From Maribacter zhoushanensis (GTDB taxonomy: Bacteria > Bacteroidota > Bacteroidia > Flavobacteriales > Flavobacteriaceae), in NCBI RefSeq assembly GCF_029350975.1, contig NZ_JARKMR010000002.1, forward strand, positions 1-64,000: 64,000 nucleotides of DNA. Reading direction: 5' to 3'. Position 1 is the stretch's first letter. Each line of letters starts with the position of its first letter. The translations under genes were made by a program, and so were the position numbers. The notes below the pieces were generated by a model that saw only the letters and a program-made list of their open reading frames with translations, did not search any database and was not told the origin of the DNA. This document shows positions 3,302 to 8,733 of the stretch, piece by piece.

Positions 3302-3332
3302 ACAGTTCAGTACCAAAAAAATACAGTTGGGT
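3302..3332 (+). promoter_or_regulatory. LytTR-type direct repeat upstream of the kinase gene
   Basis: ACAGTTCAGT and ACAGTTGGGT start at 3302 and 3323, exactly 21 bases (two helical turns) apart, the arrangement LytTR-domain dimers recognise. The same pair with ACAATT in place of ACAGTT occurs at 5303-5333. Both are followed by a TCA plus T-run plus AA stretch that could be the core promoter (TAATTTGG here). I infer binding by the LytTR regulator at 6739-7503, giving self-control. The kinase ATG is about 145 bases downstream. Confidence 0.65.
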
Positions 3333-3476
3333 CGTCATTTTTTTTAATTTGGAAGAAAAGGTTTCATGTTTGCTATTATCTAGGGCATTTATAGAAAGAA
3401 GTATACTTCTAAAAGGAAATCCCTAATTTTAGAAATCTGAAATTAGTATTTTACGATTCGTACAAAAATTTATTTT

Positions 3477-4799
3477 ATGAGTAATATTTTGAAAATAGTT
3501 AAGTACAGTACTGTAATTTCTTTGGGGATTATTGTTGTTAATCGATTTCTTAGTTGGGGAGAACCTTTTGTATGGAAAGAACAAGCTGAACAAATAATAA
3601 TTGTTTTTGGTATATCTATAGTTTTAACAATAATAAGTGTCTACTACGAGGCGTTTATATCTAAAAAATATTCATGGGAACAAGCCCCTAAAAAGAGGCT
3701 AATATATGGGTCTTTGGGTTCTATTTCAATAATAGTAGTTGCATACGGTTTGTTAAGATTATTACTTTATGTGGCATATTTTAATAAATCCTTAGTGGAT
3801 TTTATATCTAATGAAAATAGTAGTACATATTTAATATTTATCGCGGTTGCTGTATTTATATCCTTATTTATACACGCCTTCTACTTCTACAAAGCCTTAC
3901 AGGATACTAAAGTAAAAGAGCAGAAAATTATAGCAGGTTCAGCGTCTGCAAAGTTCGATGCTTTAAAAAATCAATTAGATCCTCACTTTCTTTTCAATAG
4001 CCTTAATGTGCTTACTAGCCTTATAGAAGAAGATCCTATGCAGGCGCAAAAATTTACGACTTCGTTATCTAAAGTGTATAGGTATGTATTGGAGCAGAAG
4101 AGTAAAAATCTAATTTCTGTAGATGAAGAATTAAAGTTTGCCAGAACCTATGTGCGATTATTAAAAATGCGTTTTGAAGATAGTATCATATTTGAAATCC
4201 CTGATGAGGCTACAAACCCAGAAGCTAAAATAGTACCATTATCGCTGCAGTTATTGTTAGAAAATGCAGTAAAGCATAATGTAGTCACGTCTTCCAAACC
4301 TTTGCATATAAAAATTTATGAGGAGGATAATTACTTGTATGTGGTCAATAACCTTCAAGAGAAACAGGTTGTTAAAAAGAGTAGTGGGGTAGGGCTGCAA
4401 AATATACGCCAGCGTTATGCCATACTTACTAAAAAAGAAATGCAAATTTTTAAGACCGCTAAAGAATTTAAGGTAAGGCTACCAATGTTGACCAATGCTA
4501 TTTCTTTTAAAGAAACACAAGATTCGCACATTAGTGCCAAGCGCTATGAGAAAGCTAAAAAGCGAGTAGAAGAAATTAAAGGTTTTTATGGTAACCTAAC
4601 TTCGTACTGTATTGTTATACCTGTTCTGGCATTTATAAATTATAGAACCACAAGCTTTGTATGGGTAATTTTTCCGGCTGTAGGGTGGGGTATAGGATTA
4701 ATAGCCCATGGATTAAAGGCATACGGACTAAATCCGTTATTCGGTCAAGATTGGGAAGAGAAAAAAATCAAGGAATTGATGGAGAAAGACAATTTCTAA
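3477..4799 (+). CDS. LytS-type sensor histidine kinase with C-terminal 2TM domain
   Basis: This 440-residue membrane kinase has four hydrophobic segments (about 10-28, 38-58, 77-100, 117-138), then a His_kinase domain of the LytS/YehU class with DPHFLFNSLN (H170 the phospho-acceptor), an N-box LLENAVKHN (N263) and a G-box GVGLQN (304-309). After residue 350 comes a full 2TM domain (YEKAKKRVEEIKGFYGN, two helices, then NPLFGQDWEEKKIKELM) that matches the four small proteins encoded downstream. The fused 2TM module is the odd part; it implies that 2TM proteins and the kinase assemble together in the membrane. The cognate regulator is at 6739. A 21-bp-phased direct repeat lies upstream. Confidence 0.93.
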   Translation: MSNILKIVKYSTVISLGIIVVNRFLSWGEPFVWKEQAEQIIIVFGISIVLTIISVYYEAFISKKYSWEQAPKKRLIYGSLGSISIIVVAYGLLRLLLYVAYFNKSLVDFISNENSSTYLIFIAVAVFISLFIHAFYFYKALQDTKVKEQKIIAGSASAKFDALKNQLDPHFLFNSLNVLTSLIEEDPMQAQKFTTSLSKVYRYVLEQKSKNLISVDEELKFARTYVRLLKMRFEDSIIFEIPDEATNPEAKIVPLSLQLLLENAVKHNVVTSSKPLHIKIYEEDNYLYVVNNLQEKQVVKKSSGVGLQNIRQRYAILTKKEMQIFKTAKEFKVRLPMLTNAISFKETQDSHISAKRYEKAKKRVEEIKGFYGNLTSYCIVIPVLAFINYRTTSFVWVIFPAVGWGIGLIAHGLKAYGLNPLFGQDWEEKKIKELMEKDNF

Positions 4800-4820
4800 A
4801 CGTGTTCTAAAATCGCTATT

Positions 4821-5273
4821 ATGAAGCTGACAGAAAATATTATAATGTCTATAAACGATAGTGTTCTGTGTTGGTTGGCGACATCGTCATTAGATAATAT
4901 ACCTAATGTATCACCAAAAGAGATTTTTAGCTTTTATGAAGAAGACATCATAATTGTTGCAAATATAGCTTCGCCACAAACGGTTAAGAATATAAGGGAG
5001 AACAAACATGTTTGTATCAGCTTTATAGACGTTTTAAAGCAAAAAGGATTTCAGTTGAAAGGTGAGGCTGAAATTATAGCGGAATCATCTTCAGAATTCT
5101 CTAGTATGGAAAAAGTACTTCTTTCACTTACAGAAGGCAAGTTTCCGTTCGCTACTATTACAAAGATTACCATCACCAGTACAAAACCAATACTAGCGCC
5201 TAAATACGTGCTGTACCCTAATACAACAGAGCAAGAACAAATTGAAAGTGCGAAGAAATCGTACGGATTTTAA
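4821..5273 (+). CDS. pyridoxamine 5'-phosphate oxidase-like flavin protein
   Basis: The 150-residue protein has the split-barrel flavin-binding pattern of the pyridoxamine 5'-phosphate oxidase-like superfamily: an N-terminal helix, CWLATSSLDNIPNVSPKEI as the first strands, IIIVANIASPQTVKNI with the phosphate-binding region, and NKHVCISFIDV. It is short, as in the putative FMN-binding members rather than true PdxH. Substrate is unknown; many relatives bind FMN or F420 or act on small oxidisable molecules. It starts 21 bases after the kinase stop and is probably co-transcribed with it, though a second regulated promoter follows before the 2TM genes. Confidence 0.8.
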   Translation: MKLTENIIMSINDSVLCWLATSSLDNIPNVSPKEIFSFYEEDIIIVANIASPQTVKNIRENKHVCISFIDVLKQKGFQLKGEAEIIAESSSEFSSMEKVLLSLTEGKFPFATITKITITSTKPILAPKYVLYPNTTEQEQIESAKKSYGF

Positions 5274-5302
5274 GGGTTTTATAGCTATAAATACCTCTTT
5301 CT

Positions 5303-5333
5303 ACAATTCAGTCATTAAAAATTACAATTGGGT
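5303..5333 (+). promoter_or_regulatory. LytTR-type direct repeat upstream of the 2TM genes
   Basis: ACAATTCAGT (5303) and ACAATTGGGT (5324) are spaced by 21 bases and match the pair at 3302-3332 in every position but one in each half. The similarity continues into a TCATTTTTTT stretch after the second half. The 2TM gene starts about 80 bases downstream. I infer that the operon's own LytTR regulator controls this promoter as well as that of the kinase. Confidence 0.65.
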
Positions 5334-5414
5334 ATTTCATTTTTTTAAAACCTGGGTTATCTACCGAAATTTGAAGTATAGTAATCAAATAATAATAACC
5401 TAAAACTTATAAAG

Positions 5415-5699
5415 ATGGAAACAGAATTCACAAATAACGATAATTACAAGTATCAAAAAGCAAAAGATAAAGTAGAAGCTATAAAAGGTTTTTACGGTAA
5501 TTTAATAGCGTACTGCATTGTAATTCCCATTTTGGCATATATCAATTATAACACCACTAGTTTTCCTTGGGCCATTTTTCCGGCACTGGGTTGGGGATTC
5601 GGATTAACTATGAACGGTCTTTATGCCTTTGGGTACAACCCTTTTTTCGTTAAGAACTGGGAAGAGAGAAAGATCAAACAATATATGCAAGAATCATAA
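5415..5699 (+). CDS. 2TM domain-containing membrane protein (1 of 4)
   Basis: A 94-residue protein consisting almost only of a 2TM domain (PF13239-like): a basic amphipathic start YQKAKDKVEAIKGFYGN, a first helix at about 33-50, a second at about 58-75, then YNPFFVKNWEERKIKQYM. It is nearly identical in plan to the C-terminal 90 residues of the kinase at 3477-4799 (NLTSYCIVIPVLAFINY there, NLIAYCIVIPILAYINY here), which suggests that the kinase tail arose by fusion of such a gene. Function is unknown; a role as a membrane partner or modulator of the LytS kinase is inferred from fusion and context. Confidence 0.9.
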   Translation: METEFTNNDNYKYQKAKDKVEAIKGFYGNLIAYCIVIPILAYINYNTTSFPWAIFPALGWGFGLTMNGLYAFGYNPFFVKNWEERKIKQYMQES

Positions 5700-5717
5700 C
5701 TTAATAAACTGAAGATC

Positions 5718-6008
5718 ATGGAAAACACAAAATATACAAAAGCAAAATTAAGAGTAGAAGCGATAAAAGAATTTTATGGTAAGGTAGCCTCGGCAGTCGT
5801 CACCATAATACTCGTAGCGGCATTAAATTATTACCTTAACGAATGGGAATATGCTTGGTTTCTTTGGGTAGTATTCGGATTAAGCATTAGCTTATTTTTA
5901 AAAGCGAATAAAATCTTTAACTTGAATCCGTTTATGAATCGTGACTGGGAAGAAAGAAAATTACAAGAGTTTTTACAACAAGAAGAAAATAAGCAAAGAT
6001 GGAACTAA
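5718..6008 (+). CDS. 2TM domain-containing membrane protein (2 of 4)
   Basis: A 96-residue 2TM protein with YTKAKLRVEAIKEFYGK, two hydrophobic helices (about 23-41 and 49-67), and LNPFMNRDWEERKLQEFL. It differs from its neighbours by EFYGK in place of GFYGN and by a Gln/Glu-rich tail. It lies 18 bases after the previous gene and its end overlaps the next gene by 10 bases, so the cluster is clearly one operon. The chosen ATG follows an A-rich leader and gives the family's usual N-terminus. Confidence 0.9.
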   Translation: MENTKYTKAKLRVEAIKEFYGKVASAVVTIILVAALNYYLNEWEYAWFLWVVFGLSISLFLKANKIFNLNPFMNRDWEERKLQEFLQQEENKQRWN

Positions 6009-6337
6009 ACGAATTTGATCAAGCCGATAAACTGGCAAGGGCCCAAAAGAAAGTAAAAGAGCTTAAAGGGTTTTATATTCACCTAAGTATTTATGTACTG
6101 GTCAATTTATTCATCATGACCATTACAATTATGGGTATTATGTCTGGTGGAGCTTCATTTTCAGAAGCTTTGTTCAACATAGGCACATTTTCAACTCCGT
6201 TTTTCTGGGGAATAGGGTTGGCATTTCACGCGGCCAAGGTATTTGGATTTAATCCTTTTTTTAGTAAAGATTGGGAACAACGCCAAATAAGTAAATATAT
6301 AGAGCAGGATAAAAAAGATGCTGAAAAATATAGATAA
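5999..6337 (+). CDS. 2TM domain-containing membrane protein (3 of 4)
   Basis: A 112-residue 2TM protein: LARAQKKVKELKGFYIH, a first helix at about 31-50, a longer loop with SGGASFSEALFN, a second helix at about 70-85 (FFWGIGLAFHAAKVFG), then NPFFSKDWEQRQISKYI. The extended loop between helices separates it from copies 1 and 2. The start overlaps copy 2 by 10 bases, indicating coupling. The role is unknown beyond the predicted link to the kinase and regulator encoded on either side. Confidence 0.9.
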   Translation: MELNEFDQADKLARAQKKVKELKGFYIHLSIYVLVNLFIMTITIMGIMSGGASFSEALFNIGTFSTPFFWGIGLAFHAAKVFGFNPFFSKDWEQRQISKYIEQDKKDAEKYR

Positions 6338-6338
6338 T

Positions 6339-6704
6339 ATGGAAACTAATCTACCAAACGATAATCTTGTAAGTGAAGAATTTAGCAGGCTGTCTAAATA
6401 CGAAAGGGCAAAAACAAAAGTGGCTAGTATAAAGAGTTTCTATAACCACGCACTAGTTTTTCTAGTTATAAATATCATTTTGTACTTCTTGAGACATAAA
6501 TTTGTTTTCATATTAGTGAGTAAAGATGCCTTAGGTAATCCTGAGTTTTTAGATTGGATAAATTGGAATGTATATGGCACCACCATAGTATGGGCAATTA
6601 TACTGGCTATACATGCAATTACTGTTTTTGGAAACCTACCTTGGCATTTGAAAAAATGGGAAGAGCGTAAAATTCAGAAGTACATCAACGCTAACAACGA
6701 ATAA
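6339..6704 (+). CDS. 2TM domain-containing membrane protein (4 of 4)
   Basis: A 2TM protein of about 121 residues. I choose the ATG at 6339, two bases after the stop of copy 3, over the upstream in-frame ATG at 6318 because the latter lies inside the preceding gene and adds only MLKNIDN. The domain shows KYERAKTKVASIKSFYNH, two helices with a loop carrying DALGNPEFLDWINW, and NLPWHLKKWEERKIQKYI. It is the most diverged copy. The response regulator gene follows 34 bases later. Confidence 0.88.
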   Translation: METNLPNDNLVSEEFSRLSKYERAKTKVASIKSFYNHALVFLVINIILYFLRHKFVFILVSKDALGNPEFLDWINWNVYGTTIVWAIILAIHAITVFGNLPWHLKKWEERKIQKYINANNE

Positions 6705-6738
6705 AGCATATTGTTTATAACCACCATAAATACCGACC

Positions 6739-7503
6739 ATGAAGACCATTATAATTGAAGATGAAAAACCAGCAGCACGTAGGTTGGGTAGAATGTTAGA
6801 GAGTTTAGACTTGTCTGTTTCTACTATGTTACATTCTGTGGAAGAGGCAATAGATTGGTTTCAGAACAATGAACATCCAGATTTAATTTTCTTGGACATT
6901 CAATTATCTGACGGACTCTCTTTTGAAATTTTTGATGTAATTGAGGTGCATAGCGCCATTATATTCACTACCGCTTTTGATGAGTATGCGCTTAAAGCTT
7001 TTAAATTGAATAGTATAGACTACCTTTTAAAACCCATTGATGACGAAGATCTAGAGCAAGCTGTAAATAAATACAGAAAAATGTTCAAGTCTGATAATGA
7101 ACCAAGTAAGATAGCTTTGGACTTTGAAGATATTAAGAAGCTATTGGTGAATCCGCTAGAGCGGGAATATAAAAAGCGATTTACAGCGAAAGTGGGTCAG
7201 CATTTAAAAATCATTAATGCAGAAGACGTAGAATGTTTTTACAGTGAAAATAAAGGCACCTACGCCGCTACAAAAGATGGTCGCAATTATTTGTTAGATA
7301 CTACTTTAGAACAACTAGAAGAGGAGTTGAAACCACAAGTATTTTTTAGGGTAAGTAGAAAGTTCTTCGTGAATATAGATCACATAAAAGATATAGTTTC
7401 ATACACCAATTCAAGGTTACAGATCAAGTTGAATAACAACGCTGATCACGAAATTATCGTGAGTAGAGAAAAGGTGAAAGATTTTAAGCTTTGGTTAGAA
7501 TAG
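6739..7503 (+). CDS. LytTR-family response regulator
   Basis: A 254-residue regulator with an N-terminal receiver domain (acidic pair ED at 7-8, phospho-acceptor D53 in FLDIQLSDG, FTTAFDEYALKAF and LLKPID with the conserved Thr and Lys) and a C-terminal LytTR DNA-binding domain from about residue 148 (FTAKVGQHLKIINAEDVECF, RVSRKFFVNIDHIKDI). It is the evident partner of the kinase at 3477-4799. LytTR proteins bind two direct repeats about 21 bases apart, and two such sites are present at 3302 and 5303 in this same operon, so positive or negative self-regulation is likely. Confidence 0.95.
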   Translation: MKTIIIEDEKPAARRLGRMLESLDLSVSTMLHSVEEAIDWFQNNEHPDLIFLDIQLSDGLSFEIFDVIEVHSAIIFTTAFDEYALKAFKLNSIDYLLKPIDDEDLEQAVNKYRKMFKSDNEPSKIALDFEDIKKLLVNPLEREYKKRFTAKVGQHLKIINAEDVECFYSENKGTYAATKDGRNYLLDTTLEQLEEELKPQVFFRVSRKFFVNIDHIKDIVSYTNSRLQIKLNNNADHEIIVSREKVKDFKLWLE

Positions 7504-7527: not shown

Positions 7528-8733
7528 TTATTTACGATATAAATCTTCTTCTTCGTCAATTCTATTTTCATCAAATGCCGATGGCAATAGCTTAGGAATC
7601 AACTTAATAAATATGGGTAGTAGAATAGCACCGCCAGGTAAAATGAAAATGGCAAGAGAAGGTATGCTTTTAAAAATATCCAATAGTTGATTCTGAACCT
7701 TCTTTTTTTCCTCATCGCTTAAATCGCGTATGGTAGACTTTGATAATAATGCAACCAATTCTGCACTTTGAGAAAGCTCTTTATGTAACCGCTTACTATT
7801 TCTAAGAATAAGTTTCTTTACCAATTTACCCATACTATCATAGAACTGCATTGCCAAGTTCTTTTCCTTTAAATAAGGTATAGTATCAAAATTGAGTTTA
7901 AAGAATTGGGTAACATCCATAATAGATGTAGAAATAACGGTGTTGTCAAATCCAAGGTCTTTTCCTATTCCAAATATAAATTCAGATTCAGTGTAATCTA
8001 AAGAATGATCTTCCCAAACGGTAAGGCAGGCCATATCTAATAAATATCGGTTTTCCCAATTGTCTTTATTATCAAGTAATCTTTTACGGTAAGTACCATC
8101 AAAGCTATTTTCTGCACAACTTATATAGGTTAAAGAAGAAGCCAGCAGTTGAGAAAGTTTGTTATCCTTCCTATCCAACTCCTTAGAGCTTAACGCATCA
8201 TAGGTAATATTTATCGCTAGGTATTCAATCTCTTCGGCTTTTTTCTTTAAATCGGTATGGTTATTTAAAAAGTGTTTAAAAAGTAGCACATCTATAAATA
8301 GAAGTGAATTGGTAATAAGGCTATTAAAGGTTTTACTAATGATATTATCCTCAATGTAAATTCTTGAGGTCATCAGCTTTTCAAGCTTGGCAGAGGTTTT
8401 ACTTCCTGTAAACCATTTATCAAAAAATCCGGCTCGGCTAATATTCAGTATCTCATAGAACTTAAAAACCTGTTCTATAAATATAGAATAGTCTTCACCA
8501 CCTTCGGTTCGGTAGGTAAAGAATAGGGCATGTAGTAAATTAATTTTTGCTTTTTCGTCTTCAGATAATGTATGCTCCAATTCAATAAAATCAGGAATAC
8601 CAGAATTCAGTCCATACACAAACCCGCTTTTTTTAAGCGTAGCATACAAGGCTTCAAAAGTTGGAAATTCGTCTTGGTGTTTTTGAACAACCGAACCATA
8701 TTTCTCGATCCAACCAGAGGAAGACGGGTTCAT
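7528..8733 (-). CDS. LETM1-related biofilm-associated protein
   Basis: This 401-residue protein resembles the flavobacterial LETM1-related biofilm-associated family. The tell-tale part is the C-terminus (about 340-390): a charged helix LSDEEKKKVQNQLLDIF followed by SLAIFILPGGAILLPIFI and KLIPKLLPSAF, which is the LETM1 core seen in mitochondrial ion-exchange proteins. The N-terminal 300 residues are helical and not otherwise recognisable. It lacks a signal peptide, so the single hydrophobic LETM1 stretch is the only membrane contact. It is convergent with the LytTR regulator, 24 bases apart. The biofilm link comes from family naming, not from this sequence. Confidence 0.8.
   Translation of the reverse strand: MNPSSSGWIEKYGSVVQKHQDEFPTFEALYATLKKSGFVYGLNSGIPDFIELEHTLSEDEKAKINLLHALFFTYRTEGGEDYSIFIEQVFKFYEILNISRAGFFDKWFTGSKTSAKLEKLMTSRIYIEDNIISKTFNSLITNSLLFIDVLLFKHFLNNHTDLKKKAEEIEYLAINITYDALSSKELDRKDNKLSQLLASSLTYISCAENSFDGTYRKRLLDNKDNWENRYLLDMACLTVWEDHSLDYTESEFIFGIGKDLGFDNTVISTSIMDVTQFFKLNFDTIPYLKEKNLAMQFYDSMGKLVKKLILRNSKRLHKELSQSAELVALLSKSTIRDLSDEEKKKVQNQLLDIFKSIPSLAIFILPGGAILLPIFIKLIPKLLPSAFDENRIDEEEDLYRK

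Follow-up and report, generated by a model that had tools for sequence, protein, structure and literature searches.

The window analysed here is a 64,000-nucleotide stretch of the genome of Maribacter zhoushanensis (contig NZ_JARKMR010000002.1, positions 1 to 64,000), and its positions 3477–7503 hold an operon that combines a LytS/LytTR two-component system with several copies of the membrane domain 2TM (PF13239). All genes in this interval lie on the plus strand: a LytS-type histidine kinase with a C-terminal 2TM tail, a PNPOx_N-domain gene, four free-standing 2TM proteins (hereafter free 2TM 1 to 4) and a regulator with receiver and LytTR domains (Table 1). Pfam matches bear out a preliminary description of this locus as to the tailed kinase, the four free 2TM proteins and the LytTR regulator. 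That description rightly placed four 2TM genes between kinase and regulator, but it overlooked the PNPOx_N gene in the same interval, and its wording that the kinase tail is nearly identical to free 2TM 1 was too strong, because 55 of 92 residues are identical (60%; 79% positive). Free 2TM 2–4 are 27–36% identical to the tail. The curated cut-off of PF13239 is exceeded by all five 2TM domains of the window, and this is the only Pfam model above cut-off in the free proteins; the PspC and Toastrack models match none of the window's fused or free 2TM proteins. Only one segment of free 2TM 3 rises above the hydropathy threshold.

Table 1. Positions of the genes, domains and regulatory elements of the 2TM operon and of its convergent neighbour in the window
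Feature	Position	Strand	Remarks
LytTR-type direct repeat before kinase gene	3302–3331	+	exact ACARTTNRG-N12-ACARTTNRG; conserved in relatives
−7 promoter element CATGTTTG	3365–3372	+	33 nt past end of box 3302–3331
LytS-type histidine kinase	3477–4799	+	PF06580 (residues 158–236, E = 6e-25); N-terminal membrane region
Kinase C-terminal 2TM tail	4548–4784 (residues 358–436)	+	PF13239, E = 3e-33
PNPOx_N-domain protein	4821–5273	+	PF01243, E = 9.5e-14
Second LytTR-type direct repeat	5303–5332	+	exact match; 112 bp before first free 2TM gene; same place in relatives
−7 promoter element GAAATTTG	5366–5373	+	33 nt past end of box 5303–5332
Free 2TM protein 1, tail-type	5415–5699	+	PF13239, E = 3e-29
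Free 2TM protein 2	5718–6008	+	PF13239, E = 3e-17; dN/dS 0.03–0.16
Free 2TM protein 3	5999–6337	+	PF13239, E = 1e-26; dN/dS 0.04–0.08
Free 2TM protein 4	6318–6704	+	PF13239, E = 1e-16; dN/dS 0.07–0.20
Response regulator, presumed box binder	6739–7503	+	PF00072 Response_reg, E = 4.5e-15; PF04397 LytTR, E = 1.2e-23
LETM1-related biofilm-associated protein	7528–8733	− (convergent to operon)	NF040639, E = 4e-149

The Pfam scan of the kinase found PF06580 without a separate HATPase_c match. His170, Asn263 and Gly306, the first being the phosphorylated histidine and the others presumably the N-box and G-box residues, are invariant across 61 of the 71 kinases collected in this study (the truncated kinase of locus L095 and nine kinases of the genus were left out; a further alignment, A3, took 50 of the 71). 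By hydropathy, the membrane segments of the kinase fall within its first 137 residues and within its tail, which an AlphaFold2 single-chain model renders as helices at residues 340–391, 398–415 and 424–436. Since the ATPase region that precedes the tail is cytosolic, the tail should be a membrane hairpin with both termini in the cytosol. Two AlphaFold2 single-chain models were obtained, with good kinase cores and a low overall predicted template modelling score (pTM). The best 50 of 587 Foldseek matches are histidine kinases and phytochromes, headed by GanS (6swk/6swj) and then DesK, and a sequence search of solved structures returned GanS and one receptor chain at E = 1.

The suggestion that the small 2TM proteins signal to the kinase can be followed through relatives, and a functional link between the two is well supported, as the adjacency of free 2TM genes tracks the tail. 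Among 80 loci from Maribacter, Muricauda, Flavobacterium, Tenacibaculum, Polaribacter, Chryseobacterium, Sphingobacterium, Hymenobacter and other genera, found with the kinase alignment, a free 2TM gene adjoins 53 of the 56 tailed kinases and just one of the 24 tail-less kinases (L318). These loci are the 80 top-scoring matches found with a query that has a tail, a choice that inflates the share of tailed kinases and not the association of tail and free 2TM gene; they partly overlap the loci from the genome samples below (e.g. L284 and L087), so that the two sets are not independent.

The family sample comprises 60 genomes, of which 53 contain a 2TM match and 44 carry the kinase-2TM operon in the loci fetched; the other 16 have no or one 2TM match, too few for an operon (four of these single matches were not listed, and some of the genomes are 80–93% complete). 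A same-strand regulator match follows 42 of the 44 family operons. Free copies number one to four per operon in the family sample, three to five in the genus and up to six in the named relatives, and the kinase itself carries the 2TM domain in 70 of the 71 kinase loci. Our own profile counts 134 domains in the 44 operons (45 in tails and 89 free), as compared with 185 Pfam 2TM matches in all 60 genomes, so the expectation that 2TM genes mostly lie beside LytS/LytTR pairs holds within the family. It fails outside. The domain is rarer in the wider samples (13 of 51 genomes for the phylum, 24 of 119 for the class and 10 of 40 for the order), and among 17 fetched 2TM loci (of 26 matches) from distant families, that is, families other than that of the window and the related f2, only L057 has an adjoining kinase and regulator. 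In L060, likewise from a distant family, a regulator match lies about 4 kb from the 2TM gene.

A second class of 2TM genes goes with DHFR. The window genome has six PF13239 matches, five of them in the operon, and the sixth lies directly upstream of a DHFR gene. The same class is seen at L036:8010-8444 (in the window's own genome, C17), L037, L044 and L115, with PF00186 confirmed in L037 and L044, and all 14 other 2TM loci fetched from the family are directly upstream of, or fused to, DHFR. This arrangement gives a putative membrane-tethered DHFR. Outside the family, L056 and L071 each have a single 2TM gene near a small regulator gene that looks winged-helix-like by eye, a hint of other regulatory uses of 2TM.

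The four free 2TM genes of the window are under purifying selection, with ratios of nonsynonymous to synonymous change (dN/dS) of 0.03–0.20 in five close-relative comparisons, in some of which synonymous changes (dS) are near saturation. On these ratios an artefact of tandem duplication alone was rejected, and because the layout also recurs across the family, the row of free 2TM genes is not due to chance. A tree of 296 of 297 2TM domains (one shorter than 65 residues was left out) places all 71 tail domains in one clade (support 0.876) with 34 free domains, 28 of which are the first of their row, including free 2TM 1 of the window; 161 other free domains fall outside this clade. The tree, built from 92 columns, is weak; it suggests that free 2TM 1 is a detached copy of the kinase tail and that the other three belong to older, separate lines. 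Fused and free states are also interchangeable: L052 encodes one kinase with two tandem 2TM tails, L057 a kinase without a tail and a single free 2TM gene upstream, and in L318 a stop codon parts the kinase from its tail, the frame of which continues into the free 2TM (L318 comes from a metagenome assembly, where an error is possible).

The strongest new evidence, which points to feedback, is a direct repeat first noticed on reading the DNA upstream of the kinase and free 2TM 1 genes. In the 71 kinase loci (791,707 bp, both strands), 22 exact pairs of the repeat stand 21 bp apart, start to start, and none at 12–20 or 22–40 bp. At a threshold of at least 14 of 16 matches, 69 of the 71 loci have this box close to the kinase operon or to its 2TM genes, the stretches counted being the 1,400 bp before the kinase gene and the interval from kinase to regulator: 40 have it only upstream, 22 in both stretches and seven in the interval only. 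The shuffled window gives 0.87 matches per 64 kb on both strands at this threshold, and by our own arithmetic a few hundredths of a box per locus would be expected by chance. In the named set, a box occurs somewhere in the locus of 50 of the 56 tailed kinases versus three of the 24 tail-less ones. Where the gap between the kinase and the first free 2TM gene is at least 85 bp, 26 of 35 loci have a further box 93–125 bp before a 2TM gene; with shorter gaps, a second box is present in three of 35.

The box is also fixed relative to a promoter-like sequence. When 100 sites were aligned, a T-rich stretch appeared at +39 to +42, A at +64 in 96% and TTTG at +67 to +70 in 85–94% of sites. The motif [TC]AnnTTTG occurs 44 times downstream of these sites, in 43 cases exactly 33 nt after the box, versus 19 scattered occurrences on the opposite strand as a control. 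Promoters of Bacteroidota have a −7 consensus, and the arrangement looks like a box beside a promoter of this type. LytTR repeats are described, in part of PMC6193735, as 9-bp units that in most cases are separated by 12 bp and that tend to stand 10 bp ahead of the −35 element; the length, the gap and the distance of about 10 bp to the −33 region found here agree with that geometry. LytTR-dependent promoters are marked by 9-bp direct repeats 11–13 bp apart just upstream of the promoter, and the boxes here fit this description.

Boxes track the operon. Of 26 family genomes, 14 contain the strict pattern, with 22 boxes altogether; the reversed control has no box. With one mismatch allowed, boxes are found in all 16 operon-bearing genomes (44 boxes, 22 of them in the operon itself; control, three) versus one of 16 operon-less genomes, which are smaller on average (two boxes; control, one). 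The best homologues of the window regulator in operon-less genomes are 45% (G007), 43% (G022) and 33% (G006) identical, the remainder being weaker, and three genomes have none; in comparison, its orthologue in G001 is 79% and a paralogue there 41% identical, so that the homologues of G007 and G022 are at about paralogue level. These results favour the operon's own regulator as the candidate reader of the box.

Other genes stand behind the box as well. The window genome has four exact boxes: two in the operon, a third ahead of a DUF2807 gene that follows a PspC-Toastrack gene, and a fourth ahead of a DUF2141 gene. From its eight one-mismatch boxes, two were picked by eye and followed; one precedes a CarboxypepD/Plug receptor gene and the other a DUF2306-like gene. 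The latter has no Pfam match itself; a 41% identical relative, which matches DUF2306 weakly, belongs to the operon of L118, where it separates the 2TM genes from the regulator gene. The genes behind the boxes at C14:177410, C14:189735, C11:787175 and C17:2242 of the window genome are predicted direct targets. In the 16 operon-bearing genomes, 22 of the 44 boxes lie outside the kinase loci, spread over 11 genomes. Leaving out the box G018:C1:1339296, 15 of 21 such outlying boxes stand before genes of the DUF2807-, DUF2141-, receptor- or DUF4440-like kinds (named by similarity, with a Pfam match behind only some of the names), two precede other genes and four have no fitting open reading frame (ORF). 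A wider tally of 104 boxes includes 87 with an ORF, and 83 of these fall into eight families: DUF2141 (20), TPR-like (18), 2TM (15), receptor (12), kinase (10), DUF2807 (5), DUF4440-like (2) and DUF2306-like (1). The 17 boxes without an ORF at a fitting distance stand outside this family tally, in which genes neighbouring the kinase are overstated because many boxes come from loci chosen for the kinase, and the TPR-like and DUF4440-like names rest on Pfam scores below cut-off.

The known systems nearest to this operon share parts of it. With LytS/LytTR systems of the BtsS-BtsR and LytS-LytR type it has in common a PF06580 kinase with the invariant PHFLFN motif and a receiver-LytTR regulator, which scores against the BtsR and LytR models without reaching their cut-offs; it differs from them in the 2TM tail after the ATPase region and in the one to six free paralogues of that tail. 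The LytTR regulatory systems HdrRM and BrsRM, as far as PMC6193735 describes them in part, likewise combine membrane proteins beside a LytTR regulator with autoregulatory 9-bp direct repeats, but without a kinase, whereas the operon has both a receiver and a kinase. According to the same partial account, most membrane proteins of the Streptococcus mutans systems carry DUF3021 or DUF2154 and not PF13239. Such systems are marked by a receiver-less regulator without a kinase and by a DUF3021 or DUF2154 inhibitor, and the operon has neither feature. MgrB, a regulator-induced inner-membrane protein of 47 residues, is proposed in a portion of PMC2789325 to act on and damp the PhoQ kinase. It resembles the free 2TM proteins as a small membrane protein, predicted here to be regulator-induced, with a proposed action on a sensor kinase; it is a single peptide, whereas here several paralogues of a kinase-internal domain are present. 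Part of PMC11237479 links some LytTR operons with Toastrack operons. In L138 and L200 a PspC-Toastrack gene is followed by a DUF2807 gene with a box, which recalls phage-shock systems; the box of this PspC group is, however, elsewhere in the genome, and the window's 2TM proteins differ from both models. The near-matching box of L200, in genome G006, is inside a PadR/PspC-Toastrack gene group.

Searches of the open-access literature on 2TM, on LytTR in Flavobacterium and on LytTR repeats in Bacteroidetes found no description of a kinase-2TM system in the part covered, although other papers listed could mention it, and open-access searches likewise found no mention of PF13239 and nothing on DUF2141 together with DUF2807. 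In the portions of the literature covered, '2TM' is used generically or for the unrelated glycine-zipper 2TM. In Flavobacterium johnsoniae, a LytTR regulator or the adjacent histidine kinase (FJOH_RS09515/09520) was mutated in five of five lines co-evolved with an antibiotic producer (PMC10197871, in part); going by the adjacent locus tags, this is probably a different pair from the 2TM system. The LytTR two-component system, the LytTR repeats and small membrane modulators are of known kinds; what is new, as far as the literature covered shows, is that they are joined with free-standing paralogues of a domain of the kinase.

The architecture, its conservation, the co-occurrence of tail and free 2TM genes, the fixed promoter register of the boxes and the recurring target families can be read directly from the DNA. 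We propose an autoregulated envelope-response two-component system whose free 2TM proteins, once induced, act back on the tail of the kinase, and give this proposal about an even chance of being correct. In the kinase, an N-terminal membrane region would be followed by the catalytic core, after which the chain would re-enter the membrane as the 2TM hairpin. The phosphorylated LytTR regulator would bind the direct repeat beside the Bacteroidota-type promoter and activate not only the kinase operon and the free 2TM genes but also a small envelope regulon, which encodes a CarboxypepD/Plug outer-membrane receptor and exported proteins of the DUF2141, DUF2807 and TPR-like families. Since the free 2TM proteins are paralogues of the tail and are present along with it, they most likely act on it; we infer that they would tune kinase activity by pairing with the tail inside the membrane. 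The tuning would most likely be damping, as in an MgrB-like feedback loop, a sign guessed from the MgrB precedent (PMC2789325, in part); as an alternative, the free 2TM proteins may be co-activators.

Several observations weigh against this proposal. Three of the 56 tailed kinases (L313, L320 and L329) have no adjoining free 2TM gene in the DNA covered; L049 and L083 lack a box at either place under limits of which the 1,400 bp was chosen after the distances were known; nine of the 35 wide-gap loci have no second box, and three of the five tallied DUF2807 boxes have no promoter element in register. The pTM of the AlphaFold2 models is just 0.44 and 0.49, and the second 2TM domain of the double-tail kinase L052 is poorly predicted (residues 431–490, block predicted local distance difference test score 53–66); the hetero-oligomers of the preliminary description, which these single-chain models do not show, are putative. 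As to the regulator, the window genome has 17 LytTR matches, so that another regulator could use the box, and the operon-less G006, with only its distant homologue, has two near-matching boxes, one of them before a DUF2807-like gene. Boxes with two mismatches are not enriched in the window genome (53 versus 54 in the reversed control), and so only exact or near-exact boxes carry weight.

The free 2TM proteins might instead be outputs of the system, membrane-protecting proteins induced with the regulon, while the tail senses the same membrane state and binds none of them. They do share the boxed regulon with other envelope genes, in each of the five close-relative comparisons free 2TM 2 and 3 show higher identity than the kinase, and 2TM domains occur away from kinases, as with DHFR. 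We nevertheless regard this as unlikely, if worth serious attention, because the presence of free 2TM genes follows the tail and not the LytS/LytTR pair as such, and because tail and first free 2TM often form one clade and swap between fused and free states. That the free proteins are membrane inhibitors of the LytTR regulator, with the kinase tail a bystander, would agree with the membrane proteins and the repeats of the same geometry in LytTR regulatory systems (part of PMC6193735); a regulator with a receiver domain and a kinase partner, and a 2TM domain on almost every kinase, make it improbable. It is very improbable that the tail is a mere membrane anchor and the free copies tandem-duplication by-products of little function: the variation in copy number from one to six and the recurrence of a tail-like free copy would suit such an origin, but all four free genes are under purifying selection, nearly all tailed kinases have at least one free copy beside them, and dedicated boxes precede the free 2TM genes in many loci. 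Returning to feedback on the tail, a wider version, which we consider possible though doubtful, is that 2TM is a portable sensor tail and that the fused tail and the one to six autoinduced free paralogues form mixed assemblies that set the output.

The remaining genes of the locus vary among lineages. The PNPOx_N gene is present in nine of the 21 genus loci (the window and 20 others) and belongs to part of the genus only. Other guests of the operon include an ICMT-like methyltransferase in Chryseobacterium (L305, L310 and L312), an amidohydrolase (L082, L080 and L277) and a DUF2306-like gene (L280, L274 and L118); Pfam supplies the names for L305, L082, L280 and, weakly, L118, and the other loci were assigned by eye. 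The LETM1-related gene, convergent in the window, occurs in 26 of the 44 family loci and 19 of the 20 other genus loci within the stretch fetched. The box scan of the window found no direct repeat before it, and a search for LETM1 with biofilm returned only off-topic literature.

The uncharacterised 2TM family thus gains a concrete and widespread context, a predicted operator in register with a promoter, and a small set of candidate targets, and its function becomes directly testable. If the feedback holds, a kinase would be controlled by free-standing paralogues of a domain that it carries itself. If 2TM is a portable tail, this would be the first function for PF13239, and with mixed 2TM assemblies the system would retune its own receptor as it is activated.

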